A DNA stretch of 34,804 nt. Source: a virus. The first letter of the stretch is position 1, and the number at the start of each line of letters is the position of its first letter. Under the pieces are notes generated by a model. The model saw only the letters and a list, made by a program, of their open reading frames with translations. It ran no database searches and was not told where the DNA came from. The stretch spans positions 1-34,804 of the IMG/VR virus record IMGVR_UViG_3300042922_000595; one strand, 5' to 3'. A program made the translations under genes and the position numbers. Below are positions 7,046-13,523 of the stretch, in pieces.

Positions 7046-7414
7046 ATGGAAAAAAAAGATCACATGCGCAGGATGGCGATTATCGCTGAAACGGCATGTT
7101 ATGACGGTGTTGGCAACCTGCAGGGAAAAACATTTCTGACCCTGCAGATGATATACACCGCCGGTGCCGAGCGCGGCCAGGCAATTGACAAACAGTATGT
7201 TTTTGAGGGCAATCCCCCTGATTACCTCCGCAGGGATATGCTCCGGTTGGGTTTCATGGTGGATTCAACGGAAAAATTAAAGGAAATAACGGAACAACTG
7301 ATTGGAGTTGTAGTTCGCGTGTCGCTGACTCAGGATGGCGACACGCTGCACGTTTATATTGACGATTATTATGGCAGGGACAATCCGAAAAAATATTATG
7401 CAGTAAATGGGTGA
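7046..7414 (+). CDS. Early phage protein, possible OB-fold replication factor
   Basis: This 122-aa protein has alternating beta-like segments (GNLQGKTFLTLQMIYTAGAE near the start and DTLHVYIDDYYG near the end) and a central PPDYLRRDMLRLG motif. The layout resembles small OB-fold or DUF669-like proteins found just before phage primase-helicase genes, but I cannot assign a family firmly. ATG 7046 follows GAGAGGTG; the GTG at 7034 lies inside that site and is unlikely to be the start. Its stop lies 4 bp before the primase start, so the two are probably translated together and may act together at the fork. Confidence 0.6.
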   Translation: MEKKDHMRRMAIIAETACYDGVGNLQGKTFLTLQMIYTAGAERGQAIDKQYVFEGNPPDYLRRDMLRLGFMVDSTEKLKEITEQLIGVVVRVSLTQDGDTLHVYIDDYYGRDNPKKYYAVNG

Positions 7415-7418
7415 TTTT

Positions 7419-9914
7419 ATGGGCTTTAACAATATTCCGGTGGAGCTGATTCAGCGCCCGCAATGGGTTTGCCACCGTTTTCCAAATAAAATGCCGCTTT
7501 GCCCCCGCCCCAACTATAAAGGGGAACTGTATGCGGCGAAAGCTGATGACAGTCGAACCTGGGGAACATTTGAAGAAGCACTTCTCGCCGTAAAAGAATA
7601 TGGTGCGACTGGAGTTGGCTTTGAATTTGGGAATGGTATAGGTGGAGTTGATATTGACCATTGTATCGAAGATGGTGAGCTAAGTGATATGGCAAAAGAA
7701 ATCATCAATCAAATGCAAAGCTATACGGAAATTTCTCCAAGCGGAACAGGCTTGCATGTTATATGCAAAGGTCACCTTCCCGACAGGGAAGGCCGAAAAG
7801 ATACACTATTAGGACTTGAAATGTATGACACGGCCCGGTATTTCACAGTTACCGGTAATGTTTTTTGTGATGAGGATGGTATTGCGTATCCCCTCCGCGA
7901 GTGTACGGCCGAACTGGATGCAATACATAAAAAATACCTGACTCATGACCAGGTAAAGCAATTTCGACTGGGTGAATCTGTTCCGGATGCGCCTGAGACT
8001 GTGGATATTGCTCCTGTCGATAAATCGGCCGCTCCCAAAATTGATAGGCCGCCTAAGGCTGTACAGGACGAGCGCGTTCGCGATCTAACCGATGATCAGC
8101 TTCTTGATATTGCATTTAGGTCGCAAAACGGTAAGGAAATAGAGCAGCTTTTTTACGGTGACTGGAATGGATCAAAGTACCCGTCCCCGAGTGAGGCTGA
8201 TTTTGCACTTGCCAGCTATTTGGCCTTTTGGTTTAATTGCGACCTGGATCGTATGGACCGTGTCTTTCGCTGTTCCGGATTATACCGTAAAAAATGGGAC
8301 AGGTCTGTCGGTGGTGGAAGAACATACGGGCAATATACGCTGTCACGCGCAATTAAGGGCAAGGACAAGACATTTATTCCACTTGACAGGAAAACTACCC
8401 GCCGTGAAGAGCTTCCTCTTCCAGAACCTCCCCCAGTGAATATAGGAGGCGGTGCAGTTTCCCCTCCTCCACCTCCACCACCAGGCGGGGATGATGAACC
8501 TGAAGAATCTGAAATACCAAAAGACCCAAAGCTTTATACCCTGGATGATACCGGCAACGCTTATCGCTTTAGGGATGCTTATTGCAAAGAAGTTAAGTAT
8601 GACCACATCAATAAATTTTGGATGATCTGGACGGGCCAGCGCTGGTGTGAGGATCAGACTGGAGATATTAAACGCCGGGCTGATGATCTCCTCGAAAGTC
8701 TTAGGCAGGAAGCCAGTCCAGGTGAAGATAAGGACGGTAATGAAACAATGATGAAGCATATTCGCCGAACGAGGTCCAGCAAGGCTAAAAAGGCGATGAT
8801 TGAAGAAACGCAGCATTTGCCGGGCATTCCGATCCTGCCCAATGAACTTGATCGCTATAAAGATGCAATTAATGTCCAGAACGGTATTGTTGACTTGAAA
8901 ACAGGAAAACTGCGCCCGCATGACAGGCGGCTGAAAATGTCTTTAATCGCCGAAGTAGAGTACATCGATGGCGCAAAGTGTCCGCTTTGGCTAAAGTTTC
9001 TGGACGAGATCACGCAGGGCGACAAGGAACTGCAGCTGTATATTCAGCGCATGGTCGGCTATTTCCTCACAGGCTCCACTGCAGAGCAGTGCCTGTTCTT
9101 TTTATATGGGACAGGCTCAAACGGCAAAAGTACCTTTGTAAATATGATTAGTTCCTTGTTTGGGGATTATACCAAAAATGCACAGTCTGACACGATCATG
9201 AGAGCCGACCGTGGCAATTCATCTTCCGCACGGTCAGATATTGCACGTTTAAAAAGCGTGCGTTTAGTGACTACCTCAGAGCCTTCAGGAGGCTGTGTGC
9301 TGGATGAGGCACTGGTTAAGACCATGACAGGTGAGGATGTTATTACCGCGCGCAGACTGTACCGTGAGGAGTTTCAATTCCGCCCGGAATTTAAGATTGT
9401 GATGGCTACTAATGTCAAACCAATCATAAAACACAGTGACCATGGAATATGGCGGCGCGTTCGGATGCTTCCATTCGTTGCCCAAATTCCAGACGACAAA
9501 AAGGATATACATCTGGCTGAAAAGCTGCAGGCTGAGCGGGCTGGTATCTTCCAGTGGGCGCTGCAGGGAGCTGTTGACTGGTACAAGAAAGGTATGCCGC
9601 CCTGCGCGAAGGTGAGCGCTGCTAATGAGGAATACCGCCAGGAAATGGATAAGATGAAGCAATTCGTTGATGACTGTATCATCAGTGCCACCGGATGCAC
9701 CATTCCGTCCGGCAAGCTATACTCTGTTTACCGCGCCTGGTGTTCAGAGCGTGGTGAGCGTTATCCCTCATCTCAGAGCAAATTTTCACTTGACCTGCAG
9801 GACAACTATCATTTTTTCAAGCGCAAAACAGCACGGTTCAACGAATTTGTAGACATGGATTTAACCGAGACAGGCAAACAATTGGCACTGATTGCCCCCA
9901 CATCCCCCCAATAG
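7419..9914 (+). CDS. Primase-helicase (NrS-1-like primase, D5/SF3 helicase)
   Basis: This 831-aa protein primes and unwinds phage DNA. The N-terminal primase-polymerase domain carries VDIDH (Asp78 and Asp80), SGTGLHV (His113) and EMYDTARYFTVTG, the metal and nucleotide motifs of NrS-1-type archaeo-eukaryotic primases. A proline-rich linker with a run of seven Pro follows at about 350. The C-terminal half is a D5/SF3 helicase with Walker A GTGSNGKST at 564-572, a segment SDIARLKSVRLVTTSEPSGG and arginine-rich sensor GIWRRVRMLPF, then a helical tail. I take ATG 7419 as the start; ATG 7407 is four codons earlier and lacks a ribosome site. The fused primase and helicase indicate self-initiated replication using host polymerase. 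Confidence 0.93.
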   Translation: MGFNNIPVELIQRPQWVCHRFPNKMPLCPRPNYKGELYAAKADDSRTWGTFEEALLAVKEYGATGVGFEFGNGIGGVDIDHCIEDGELSDMAKEIINQMQSYTEISPSGTGLHVICKGHLPDREGRKDTLLGLEMYDTARYFTVTGNVFCDEDGIAYPLRECTAELDAIHKKYLTHDQVKQFRLGESVPDAPETVDIAPVDKSAAPKIDRPPKAVQDERVRDLTDDQLLDIAFRSQNGKEIEQLFYGDWNGSKYPSPSEADFALASYLAFWFNCDLDRMDRVFRCSGLYRKKWDRSVGGGRTYGQYTLSRAIKGKDKTFIPLDRKTTRREELPLPEPPPVNIGGGAVSPPPPPPPGGDDEPEESEIPKDPKLYTLDDTGNAYRFRDAYCKEVKYDHINKFWMIWTGQRWCEDQTGDIKRRADDLLESLRQEASPGEDKDGNETMMKHIRRTRSSKAKKAMIEETQHLPGIPILPNELDRYKDAINVQNGIVDLKTGKLRPHDRRLKMSLIAEVEYIDGAKCPLWLKFLDEITQGDKELQLYIQRMVGYFLTGSTAEQCLFFLYGTGSNGKSTFVNMISSLFGDYTKNAQSDTIMRADRGNSSSARSDIARLKSVRLVTTSEPSGGCVLDEALVKTMTGEDVITARRLYREEFQFRPEFKIVMATNVKPIIKHSDHGIWRRVRMLPFVAQIPDDKKDIHLAEKLQAERAGIFQWALQGAVDWYKKGMPPCAKVSAANEEYRQEMDKMKQFVDDCIISATGCTIPSGKLYSVYRAWCSERGERYPSSQSKFSLDLQDNYHFFKRKTARFNEFVDMDLTETGKQLALIAPTSPQ

Positions 9915-10081
9915 ATGGAGGGTTATGGAAGCTTGGAGGCATACCCCGAAACTTTTTCTTGTAATTACATAAGCAAAGTTTTATCTAACGTCCTCCATCC
10001 CTCCACAAGTATCCACAAAGATAGTATTTATCTATCTTATTTACTTTCCTTAGCTTCCATTTCTATCCATAAGTATCCATA
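9914..10081. repeat. TCCAY-rich repeat region, possible origin
   Basis: This 181-bp gap after the primase-helicase holds no gene. It has several TCCAT or TCCAC elements on the plus strand, including TATCCACA (10010-10017) and TATCCATA (10064-10071 and 10074-10081). Opposed copies near its left edge give two exact 8-bp inverted pairs: GATGGAGG 9914-9921 with CCTCCATC 9992-9999, and ATGGAAGC 9925-9932 with GCTTCCAT 10053-10060. An AT-rich stretch lies at 10018-10050. The position and repeats would suit a replication origin or primase-loading site; this is inference. Confidence 0.4.
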
Positions 10082-10095
10082 GGGAGGTTATTAAA

Positions 10096-10512
10096 ATGAA
10101 TGATGAAGAGAAAAAAGAAAAACTAATGAAATATTTGATTGCAGTTGATAGATTGAAGCGGAAATGCGATGATGCTGCCCGATGGGAAAGCATGAGCTGC
10201 GGCCCTTCCGGTGAGGTTCGAGCTCATTCCCACCAGCAAAATCACCCCGATACGATAAAGGACACAGCAATTCAGCTGCGCCAGGAGTGCGAATCCCTTG
10301 CCATCGATGTACGCGGCCTGCGTCAGGAGCTGGGTGAAGCACTGGTCATGATGAAGGACGATCGCCTCAAAGCTTTACTTGAAAGCAAATATATCGACGG
10401 GATGAGCAACCGCCAATTGCAAGAACATAACAGCTATTCAGAGCGCCATATGCGCCGCCTGATGACTCAGGCAGTAAGAGAACTTGACCGTTGCAGTTCC
10501 TATTTCTCGTAA
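10096..10512 (+). CDS. DUF1492/ArpU-like late transcription regulator
   Basis: This 138-aa protein is of the sigma-region-4-like DUF1492 group, related in role to ArpU and RinA late regulators of Gram-positive phages. The N-terminal half is helical (KLMKYLIAVDRLKRKCDDAA). The C-terminal part is a helix-turn-helix (LESKYIDGMSNRQLQEHNSY, then ERHMRRLMTQAVRELDR). GGGAGG precedes the ATG. It is the last gene before the late promoter, and four helically phased TGKCC repeats begin 3 bp after its stop, so it is the best candidate for binding them and switching on head, tail and lysis genes. Activation by direct binding, or acting as an antiterminator at the nearby hairpin, are both possible. Confidence 0.85.
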   Translation: MNDEEKKEKLMKYLIAVDRLKRKCDDAARWESMSCGPSGEVRAHSHQQNHPDTIKDTAIQLRQECESLAIDVRGLRQELGEALVMMKDDRLKALLESKYIDGMSNRQLQEHNSYSERHMRRLMTQAVRELDRCSSYFS

Positions 10513-10515
10513 AGA

Positions 10516-10550
10516 TGGCCGCAAATGGCCGGATATGTCCGCATTTGTCC
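10516..10550 (+). promoter_or_regulatory. Four phased TGKCC repeats, probable activator site
   Basis: TGGCC (10516), TGGCC (10526), TGTCC (10536) and TGTCC (10546) recur at exactly 10-bp steps, ending 2 bp before the -35 of the late promoter. At this spacing all four lie on one face of the helix. The longer units TGGCCGCAAATGGCC and TGTCCGCATTTGTCC match at 11 of 15 positions. The adjacent DUF1492 regulator is the likely binder. Confidence 0.7.
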
Positions 10551-10552
10551 TC

Positions 10553-10582
10553 TTGAAATCAACACCATTATTGACATATAAT
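10553..10582 (+). promoter_or_regulatory. Late promoter
   Basis: TTGAAA (10553-10558) and TATAAT (10577-10582) are separated by 18 bases. A second possible -35, TTGACA at 10571-10576, lies directly against the -10 and would need a weak -10 near 10594. Transcription from the first arrangement would begin near 10589, upstream of all head, tail and lysis genes. Confidence 0.7.
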
Positions 10583-10591
10583 AATGCTCAG

Positions 10592-10624
10592 AGAGGTATG
10601 CCGACTGGGCGTATCTCTTTTTTT
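10592..10624 (+). terminator. Rho-independent terminator just after the late promoter
   Basis: AGAGGTATGCC, loop GACTG and GGCGTATCTCT form an 11-bp stem with two G-U pairs, followed by seven T. It starts about 3 bases after the predicted transcription start, so without antitermination the RNA would be only about 35 nt. This promoter-terminator layout resembles lambda pR' and tR' and implies a Q-like control step before the late genes. Confidence 0.8.
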
Positions 10625-11076
10625 GTACTCCAAATTCAAATTAACATCAAATTCAAAGGCACTTTCTATATTCAAACGCATGCAGAAAGTTTTCAACACA
10701 ATCTCGCCCAAAGCGCCCGCAGACGGGGGTTATCCACAAAAGCGCATGGGTTTTCAACAGGAAAAGCCAGTTGTGGTGCGGGTCGTGGGTCCTCCCGACC
10801 CAGTACCCCTATTGCGGGTCTTGCGAGGCCCGAGGAATACCCAGATTAAAATCAATAAAACCACTTTGAATATTTGAAAACGTGAAAACCCGCCCAGCTA
10901 AGGCAAAATTTATGCAATGTGCCGAAGTTCGGCGGATGGCGGGAAAATCCGCCAAGATTAGGCCAGTTCGGCATAATGCCGAAGAAATCGGGGCCGGCGA
11001 AACTGTGTTGGTTGGTTTGGCGGGTTTGGAACGGAACTTTCAAGAGAATTATCAGGGGGAAGGGGAAAACAACTTT
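10625..11076. other. Probable packaging/regulatory region before the small terminase gene
   Basis: No convincing gene lies in these 452 bases. From left to right there is a TTTTCAACA (10690-10698), a perfect DnaA-box sequence TTATCCACA (10730-10738) and another TTTTCAACA (10751-10759). A GC-rich block at about 10780-10835 follows, with GGGTC at 10780, 10787 and 10816 and a GGGTCG/CGACCC inverted pair at 10780-10785 and 10796-10801. Three dyads then lie at 10921-10983. In lambda-type phages the cos site and terminase-binding sites lie just before the small terminase gene, so this is the best candidate for that role. The exact cut position cannot be read from the sequence. Confidence 0.45.
10921..10983. 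repeat. Three tandem dyads upstream of the small terminase gene
   Basis: GCCGAA-G-TTCGGC (10921-10933), TGGCGG-GAAAAT-CCGCCA (10937-10954) and TTCGGCAT-A-ATGCCGAA (10967-10983) follow one another. The first and third share the same GCCGAA/TTCGGC half-site. They end 93 bp before the terminase start and could be binding sites for its DNA-binding domain, like the R sites of lambda cosB. Confidence 0.6.
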
Positions 11077-11634
11077 ATGGCAGACGAAGAAAAAAGCGAA
11101 CCGAAGGGTGATCTGTATTTTGAAGGCGGGACGATCGTCGCCTGCACAAAATACGCCGCCGCTTACTTTGGGGTAACGCCGGCGACACTCAGCAACTGGA
11201 TGAAGGCCGGTTGTCCGCGGGTAAAGCACGGATATTATGACATTAAGGCGGTCAGTGAATGGAACGCGCAGAAAGAGGGAGAAAAACTGGCCGAAGTGGC
11301 AAAGACCGACCCGACGAAGATGACGCCGTCTCAGCTCAAAATGCACTATGAGGCTCTGCTAAAACAGGCCCAGCTTGAATCCACCAGATTAAAAAACCAG
11401 GTTACCAACGGAGAATATCTCGATAAGGCTGCTGTGGTCGATGATTTGACCAACTTCTTTGCAATTTTTAAGGCGTCTGTAACGGGCCTTGGGCATGAAC
11501 TGGGGCAGGTGGTGGCCGGGTATGTCGATACCGATGGAGCACGGCGAGCTGACAAGCTGATCAACGAAAGAATCAGCGACGCGTTGGCGCAAATGTCAAT
11601 TGAAGGGGTCTATCATCCGGAAATTGATGAATAG
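11077..11634 (+). CDS. Terminase small subunit, Nu1-like
   Basis: This 185-aa subunit recognises phage DNA at the packaging site and passes it to the large terminase. Residues about 25-75 form a MerR-like winged HTH (TKYAAAYFGVTPATLSNWMK, then GCPRVKHGYYDIKAVSEW), as in lambda Nu1. The rest is helical, with a LESTRLKNQVTNGEYLDK segment typical of this family. I chose ATG 11077, which follows an AAGGGG site by 11 bases. The frame is open upstream to a GTG at 10882 but that part runs through the dyads and has no ribosome site. The large terminase follows 29 bp later. Confidence 0.88.
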   Translation: MADEEKSEPKGDLYFEGGTIVACTKYAAAYFGVTPATLSNWMKAGCPRVKHGYYDIKAVSEWNAQKEGEKLAEVAKTDPTKMTPSQLKMHYEALLKQAQLESTRLKNQVTNGEYLDKAAVVDDLTNFFAIFKASVTGLGHELGQVVAGYVDTDGARRADKLINERISDALAQMSIEGVYHPEIDE

Positions 11635-11663
11635 TAAGGAAACAACGATGGGAGGGAAGCGTA

Positions 11664-13523
11664 TTGATCGGTAAAAAGTGGCGTGTCCCGGAGTGGATCC
11701 AGATCGCGCTGGTCGCGCTCAGGCCTCCCGGAAAAATGACAGTGAGCGAGTGGGCCGATGAGAATCGAATCCTGTCACTGTCGGAATCCAGCAAGCCGGG
11801 CCCTTGGCGAACAGAATTTGTTCCGTATTTACGCAAGATTATGGATGCCTTTAATGACCCGGAGGTTGAGGAAATCATTTTTATAAAGCCGACGCAGGTT
11901 GGCGGGACGGAAACAATGCTGAACATGATGGGATACGCAGTCTGTCAGGATCCCGGGCCGATGCTGGTTGTTTATCCTCAGAAAGAACTGGCAGAAATTA
12001 TCAGCGACCATCGTATCCAGCCAATGATTAAAAATTGCAAGGATTTAAAAAGCAAATATGACGAAAACAGCAAACGAATGGATTTGAATTTTTCAGGCGG
12101 TATCAGCATTGGCATTGTTGGCGCAAATTCACCCAGTGATTTAGCCAGCCGGCCGGTGCGGTATGTTTTTCTCGATGAGGAGGACAAGTATCCGGCCCGC
12201 GCGGGTAAGGAAGCAAGCCCGGCGGCACTGGCTATGGAACGTCAAAAGACGTACCCTGCCAGTAAGAAAACGATGAGAGCATCAACGCCGGTATTTGAAA
12301 TCGGTCCAACCTGGCAGAACTGGCTCAAGGCCGACACGCAAATGGAGTGTTTTGTCACCTGCCCCCACTGCGGGGCAAGCTGGACGTTCAAAATGAAGCA
12401 GCTGAAATGGCCGGAAGGCAGCAATTCGGATCAGGCCCGCAAGGAAGCATTTTATGTTTGCGAAGAGTGCGGCTGCCTGATTTCCGAATCCGACAAGAAC
12501 GGAATGATTCATCATTGCGAATGGCGGTCGATCCGGACGAACGGCAGCAAGCGTCGGACAGCGTTCCGGCTGAATGCCTTTTATTCTCCGTGGGTTCGCT
12601 TCGGTGAAATTGCAGCGAATTTTCTGGACAGCAAAAACCAGCCGGAGCTGCTGCAAAACTTCATCAACTCCTGGTTGGGGGAACCGTTCAAGGAAATAGA
12701 GCAGGAGCTCGACGCAGAGTGGCTGCTCAGAGAAAAACAGAGCGAGTACCGGCGGAAGATTGTTCCGACACACACGGTTATGCTGACCGGCGGCGTCGAT
12801 GTTCAACGAAAAAGTTTTTATTGGACGATTCGGGCATGGCGAGCCAACATGTCAAGTTACAATGTGGCGCATGGCCAAGTATTTACATGGGCTGAAATTG
12901 AAGATGTTATGAATGACTGGTATCGGGATGAGAACGGCGGGAAATATCAGGTAAATCTGTGTTGTGTGGACTCTGGCGACCAGACAGATGATGTTTATGA
13001 GTTCTGCGCTATCAACCGGGAATGGGCGGTGCCAATTAAAGGCTCCAGTAATCGGATGATTACAAAATACCGCCCGTCAATCATTGACAAAGACGGCGTT
13101 TCAAAAGGAATGACCATGCTGATGGTGGACACCGATTACTACAAAGACATGATTTTCTCTCGAATTTTCAGGGATGAGGACAACGGTGGCTGGTACCTGC
13201 ACGACAAATGCGACCCGGAATATGCGGAAATGATCACCGCGGAACAAAAAGTCATTGATCGGGTTCATGGCCGTTTGATTAGCCACTGGGTACCAAAATC
13301 AACCGGCAGAGATAATCACTATTTTGACTGTGAAGTATATGCGGCCTGCGCAGCGGACGTGTTCGGAATCCGTACATTACATGCGAACCAGGCGCGGCAG
13401 GAACGCGGAGAGCCGACTGCGGAGGAAGCTCCAAAGCAGTTGGCAAATGAACCGCCGGCAGTGCAAAAGTCAAGCACGTTACACAGCGGAAAATCATTCC
13501 GGAAAGGGCGGTGGAAAATATGA
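11664..13523 (+). CDS. Terminase large subunit, GpA family
   Basis: This 619-aa packaging motor and nuclease belongs to the lambda GpA family. The ATPase has a Walker A-like KPTQVGGTE at 75-83 and Walker B VFLDE at 168-172. Two CxxC pairs (CPHCG and CEECG, about 231-268) form the zinc finger inserted in this family. The C-terminal nuclease region has GGVDVQRKSFYWTIRAW and CCVDSGDQTDDVYEF, with conserved Asp residues, and ends with the basic tail SGKSFRKGRWKI. The start is TTG 11664 with GGGAGGG upstream. The stop overlaps the next ATG as ATGA. GpA-type terminases usually act on cohesive-end genomes. Confidence 0.95.
   Translation: MIGKKWRVPEWIQIALVALRPPGKMTVSEWADENRILSLSESSKPGPWRTEFVPYLRKIMDAFNDPEVEEIIFIKPTQVGGTETMLNMMGYAVCQDPGPMLVVYPQKELAEIISDHRIQPMIKNCKDLKSKYDENSKRMDLNFSGGISIGIVGANSPSDLASRPVRYVFLDEEDKYPARAGKEASPAALAMERQKTYPASKKTMRASTPVFEIGPTWQNWLKADTQMECFVTCPHCGASWTFKMKQLKWPEGSNSDQARKEAFYVCEECGCLISESDKNGMIHHCEWRSIRTNGSKRRTAFRLNAFYSPWVRFGEIAANFLDSKNQPELLQNFINSWLGEPFKEIEQELDAEWLLREKQSEYRRKIVPTHTVMLTGGVDVQRKSFYWTIRAWRANMSSYNVAHGQVFTWAEIEDVMNDWYRDENGGKYQVNLCCVDSGDQTDDVYEFCAINREWAVPIKGSSNRMITKYRPSIIDKDGVSKGMTMLMVDTDYYKDMIFSRIFRDEDNGGWYLHDKCDPEYAEMITAEQKVIDRVHGRLISHWVPKSTGRDNHYFDCEVYAACAADVFGIRTLHANQARQERGEPTAEEAPKQLANEPPAVQKSSTLHSGKSFRKGRWKI

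Follow-up and report, generated by a model that had tools for sequence, protein, structure and literature searches.

Four boxes in 10-bp register ahead of a predicted phage late promoter: probable operator of an adjacent Ltr/RinA/ArpU-type regulator

What reads the four short repeats that stand between a small regulator gene and the predicted late promoter of virus IMGVR_UViG_3300042922_000595, and to what effect? The stretch analysed here (the window) is the 34,804 nucleotides of that record; the genes, boxes, promoter, leader, and hairpin located below are all on its + strand. The boxes are TGGCC (10516..10520), TGGCC (10526..10530), TGTCC (10536..10540), and TGTCC (10546..10550). Their sequences and starts, as given in the original prediction, were read directly in the window, and all four were also placed by pattern search and family alignment. 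The stop codon of the regulator gene ends at 10512. The array stops 2 bp short of the -35 hexamer, as had been claimed: box 4 ends at 10550 and TTGAAA (10553..10558; five of six consensus positions) begins at 10553. After an 18-bp spacer follows a perfect -10, TATAAT (10577..10582), so that the promoter is near consensus (11/12), and the boxes cover about -74 to -40 relative to its predicted start. A search of the whole window with the four-box pattern, allowing up to three mismatches, returned this array as its single match (shuffle mean 0.01), and the frequency of TGKCC within the window predicts about 1e-6 exact four-box arrays. The likeness between boxes extends beyond TGKCC, to a 10-bp unit of roughly WTGKCCGSAW. 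The boxes had further been said to lie on one face of the DNA, which holds approximately but not strictly: 10.0 bp against ~10.5 bp per turn amounts to a drift of ~17 degrees per box. We softened the strict claim because some relatives carry at least eight boxes at 10 bp, and these must wind slowly round the helix (L205).

Close relatives were gathered by protein search and by promoter or box pattern, giving a family of eight phage or prophage loci (the window, L002, L003, L005, L006, L008, L012, and L032) whose regulators are 51 to 69% identical to that of the window. The array is conserved in exact register throughout. Counted back from TATAAT, boxes start at 31, 41, 51, and 61 nt in 8/8 loci, and the last ends 26 nt short of it in all of them; each locus has four or five boxes at exact 10-bp spacing, the fifth occurring in three. 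Mean box match over the eight loci was 4.5-4.75 of 5 at offsets -31, -41, -51, and -61, and below 3.0 at every other offset. The repeats of Ltr-type systems have their counterpart here in four boxes kept in eight loci. Within the family the -10 is invariant, the 18-bp spacer is kept in 8/8, and the -35 is intact in all eight and identical in seven. The original prediction suggested that such a pair of regulator and operator may recur in other clostridial phages; the comparison it called for was made, and the contrary outcome, no conservation beside DUF1492 genes, did not occur.

The gene that adjoins the array (10096..10512) encodes a protein of 138 aa that profiles, fold, and gene position mark as RinA/ArpU/DUF1492/Ltr-like. 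Its profile matches are weak but consistent (phrog_36, E 6e-7; phrog_248, E 3e-4). PF07374 (DUF1492) scored 19.5 bits against the protein, under the 21.5 cut-off; neither TIGR01636 nor TIGR01637 matched it, even at E ≤ 1; and tblastn against annotated phages gave one weak match only. Its place in the Ltr/RinA/ArpU group is therefore supported by fold, by the position of the gene, and by profiles that are weak; we take the protein to work as an Ltr would, but to be at most a divergent relative outside the formal TIGR01636, TIGR01637, and PF07374 families. That it ends in an HTH, as originally proposed, was borne out by several lines of evidence. In profile, NCBIfam, and PDB searches the C-terminus grouped with region 4 of sigma factors (8x6g_H, a sigma factor chain, E 4e-5). 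The AlphaFold model (pLDDT 87.9) begins with two long helices and ends in an HTH; in fold this HTH best matched sigma region 4 domains, with no match at E ≤ 0.001. The recognition helix of this sigma-region-4-like HTH is YSERHMRRLMTQAV. The gene has the position usual for Ltr-type regulators: it lies upstream of terS, where early genes give way to late ones, and encodes a small C-terminal-HTH protein. Just upstream of it, at 7407-9914, is an NrS-1-like primase/helicase (D5_N, NrS-1 polymerase HBD domain). The first late gene is the terminase small subunit (11077..11634; phrog_57, E 4e-19), followed by a gpA-type terminase large subunit (11664..13523; PF05876 and PF20454). A 14-nt match to a box pair (TGGCCGGGTATGTC) occurs inside terS, at 11513-11526.

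The box sequence varies with the recognition helix of the neighboring protein. Helices beside TGTCC arrays are mostly R-[TH]-[IVM]-R-R, with H never at the variable position; those beside TTGGCA arrays are mostly R-[TS]-V-H-R, with R never at that position. Among distinct helices, R was found in 17/24 beside TGTCC (18 with L078 correctly read) and H in none, and H in 7/13 beside TTGGCA and R in none; these are counts of related, phylogenetically non-independent sequences and describe a correlation, with no formal test. The helix pattern misread L078 (ERTIRR by eye) and took in L264, an ORF that is probably spurious. The RinA of phage phi11, with helix DRTAHR and TTGGCA/GTGGCA boxes, agrees with the pairing of H and TTGGCA. 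R and TGTCC also go together in two clades whose proteins differ greatly, that of the window and the ADARTIRRWH clade. As in Ltr systems, then, repeat sequence tracks the C-terminal HTH, as a correlation. Since the boxes change with the recognition-helix residue (RTxRR-type with TGTCC, RTxHR with TTGGCA), we strongly infer from these comparisons that the product of the adjacent gene reads the array.

The proposed pairing of regulator and operator is favored by the in-register conservation of the boxes, by their linkage to the gene, and by the way box and helix vary together, and we think it very probable that the four boxes are the operator through which the upstream-encoded Ltr/RinA/ArpU-type protein activates the late promoter. 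Binding and activation are attributed to it by analogy with published Ltr systems. Late in the lytic cycle, several regulator copies would bind head-to-tail, one sigma-region-4-like HTH per 10-bp box, and the exactness of the 10-bp period suggests that neighboring proteins touch. Together the bound regulators would bring sigma-A RNA polymerase to TTGAAA-18-TATAAT or stimulate it there, and the activated promoter would start transcription of terS, terL, portal, and the rest of the operon for packaging and structure. More speculatively, bound regulator may also be needed for the polymerase to pass a hairpin at the start of the transcript.

The arrangement was originally taken to be undescribed; it is known as a kind, and the window holds a variant of it. 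PMC13123087 describes the late regulators Ltr, RinA, and Alt as binding some four imperfect direct repeats ahead of a late promoter, and attributes the Ltr superfamily of Gram-positive phages to Quiles-Puchalt et al. 2013. According to the same paper, Alt of TP901-1 binds four imperfect direct repeats from -76 to -32, a span that matches that of the window boxes. The TP901-1 repeats differ in sequence, and a long leader with a tRNA-like sequence precedes terS (L209, 13130-13220, between the Alt promoter and terS). In phi13, deletion of the repeats abolishes the P23 promoter (PMC13123087). The phi13 Ltr/P23 system has terS and terL downstream, like the window, but its repeats are of 18 bp and another sequence, whereas the window has a strict 10-bp period, an intact -35, and a hairpin from about +1. 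The order in phi11 is rinA stop, TTGGCA/GTGGCA boxes 10 bp apart, a TATTAT-like -10 (TATTATGATAGTG), a leader terminator, and terS; its RinA has H in the recognition helix where the window protein has R, and its box is TGGCA rather than TGKCC. What is unusual in the window is a near-perfect promoter running into a predicted stop signal.

That signal was absent from the original prediction. Right after the predicted start, AGAGAGGTATGCCGACTGGGCGTATCTCTTTTTTTG forms a 13-pair stem with a T-run, a terminator-like hairpin at 10590..10620 with T residues to about 10624, which begins 7-8 nt past the -10, at about +1, and has a predicted dG of about -17.8 kcal/mol. The helix is kept in the family, with 98% of cells paired in the eight sequences and two pairs altered on both sides; covariation is modest (47/500 shuffles were equally good), the signal being weak because the stem is mostly invariant. 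A strong hairpin with T-run occurs in 44/48 distinct array loci against 6 in shuffles, at a median start of 23 nt after the -10, although the reverse strand also scores in 31/48, which limits the strand specificity. In a broader DUF1492 sample the forward strand scored in 42/68 loci, the reverse in 21, and shuffles in 10.5. By eye, the phi11, phi13, and TP901-1 leaders have such hairpins too. An Rfam search of 9900-11700 returned nothing credible.

The promoters of most relatives are built differently. In the 19 distinct loci with RTxRRWH helices, the third TGTCC box ends 20 nt before TATAAT (19/19), there is no recognizable -35 (mean 2.6/6), and ahead of the three boxes there is usually a fourth, degenerate and GCGCC-like. 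The predicted geometry of the window family differs in having a 26-nt gap with a good -35 inside it: its boxes are 6 bp further upstream than in most relatives and its TTGAAA is intact, unlike theirs. Simple activation is perhaps not the whole story, since the window promoter is already close to consensus and the RTxRR relatives lack a -35.

Lambdoid Q genes lie beside the late promoter pR', which is followed by the promoter-proximal terminator tR', and Q is bound to the DNA. The window resembles this system in having a regulator gene by the late promoter and, following the promoter, the predicted hairpin and T-run at 10590-10624. The promoter might thus fire constitutively or easily, with the transcript ending at the hairpin, about +38, and the box-bound regulator modifying RNA polymerase for read-through. 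The near-consensus promoter with its -35 intact in all eight family members, the conserved hairpin with its few compensatory pairs, and the leader terminators of the array loci and of the three known phages are all consistent with such an arrangement; so is the faint resemblance of the HTH to Phage_antitermQ (PF06530; 17.4 bits, cut-off 26 bits) and to the Q-like phrog_79 (E 0.005). That similarity is of a generic HTH only (E 0.004-0.005), with no real homology to Q seen beyond it, and no Q structure is among the best 50 fold matches listed. Lambda Q binds between the -35 and the -10, unlike the window boxes, which lie upstream of the -35. Relatives with a 20-nt gap between box and TATAAT and no -35 would need help at initiation, the frequent reverse-strand hairpins limit the strand specificity, and a simpler alternative is that the terminator merely stops early read-through and is overrun under strong promoter activation. 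We consider antitermination of this kind possible but doubtful.

With its near-consensus promoter and a hairpin at +1, the window nevertheless leaves room for a second, antitermination-like role beside activation. A more general proposal, offered only tentatively, is that RinA/ArpU/Ltr regulators of Gram-positive phages, at least those of the window family, are both activators and DNA-loaded antiterminators acting on promoters with a built-in terminator, with a simple helix code of RTxRR for TGTCC and RTxHR for TTGGCA. No paper connecting RinA/ArpU with antitermination turned up in literature searches, in which coverage was incomplete, and the word "terminator" is absent from PMC13123087. The phi13 reporter covered +50 (PMC13123087); by our estimate of the start it ends inside the U-tract of the phi13 hairpin, and we read it as leaving the choice between activator and antiterminator unsettled. 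The near-universal leader terminator, which with the box/helix code we find the most interesting point, raises the question of whether such regulators are only activators or antiterminators too.

Two other roles for the boxes can be set against that of activator operator. They lie upstream of terS, and next comes a long non-coding leader (10625..11076), conserved in relatives by eye and presumed to hold the cos or packaging site, so that they could be a cosB or pac site for the small terminase rather than a transcription operator. This is very improbable, and we rejected it: box identity follows the recognition helix of the regulator, and the distance from box to TATAAT is fixed, at 26 nt in the window family and 20 nt in the RTxRRWH loci. 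Still less probable is a site for a host or early-phage repressor silencing the late promoter; such a site beside a strong promoter would be conserved too, but the array ends before the -35 and does not overlap the promoter, and arrays in this position act positively in the Ltr systems described in PMC13123087. In the leader itself (10620-11076), AAATTCAAA-type repeats occur at 10629, 10646, and 10665, along with a GGGTCC...TTGCGGGTCTTGCGAGGCCCG block that is also conserved; the region is a candidate for cos.

The activator-operator reading can be followed into the wider regulator class, which is widespread and poorly mapped in gut and clostridial phages. PF07374 matched in 76/291 sampled genomes of the class to which the host genome of L005, an Oscillospiraceae MAG, belongs. 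When 70 de-duplicated, diverse DUF1492-family loci were scanned for tandem boxes near the regulator stop, 10 scored at least 21 at period 10, where shuffles predict 0.1; at other periods 0-3 did so. The row for the window drew on the wrong source and scored zero, with the other rows unaffected. Box sequence varies by locus (TTGGCA in L138 and L150, GTTCAC in L179, AAGCCA in L141). In L205, about eight TTCCG boxes at 10 bp, twice the usual number, lie 3' of the regulator stop, and in L004 (5360-5395) a distant homologue (32% identity) is followed by TTTTTGGACCG repeats at period 11, then TTGCCA-17-TACAAT. Searches of DNA alone found three TGTCC boxes at 10 bp with a TATAAT in 62 viral contigs, where an estimated one would arise by chance, and an HTH regulator ORF adjoins the array in 44 of these; three-box TTGGCA arrays occurred in 108 contigs, with such an ORF adjacent in 29, one probably spurious. 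The analysis thus defines operators at the level of sequence and proposes a recognition code, from which late promoters should be predictable from sequence alone.

The four-box pattern was discarded as a diagnostic by itself, as the exact scan of viral contigs also gave many unrelated high-GC arrays without an adjacent regulator. In one recurrent form, with no adjacent RinA/ArpU-like ORF recognized, four TGTCCC at 10 bp are followed by a short spacer and four inverted GGGACA (L024 3744-3838, L034, L042, L045, L047, L053, L061, L066, L081, and L083, and further L094, L096, L100, L102, L109, L115, L117, and L118). Another viral contig (L019, 5147-5391), in which no regulator was recognized, has the box TGGCCRAACC repeated 25 times in tandem with a 10-bp spacing.
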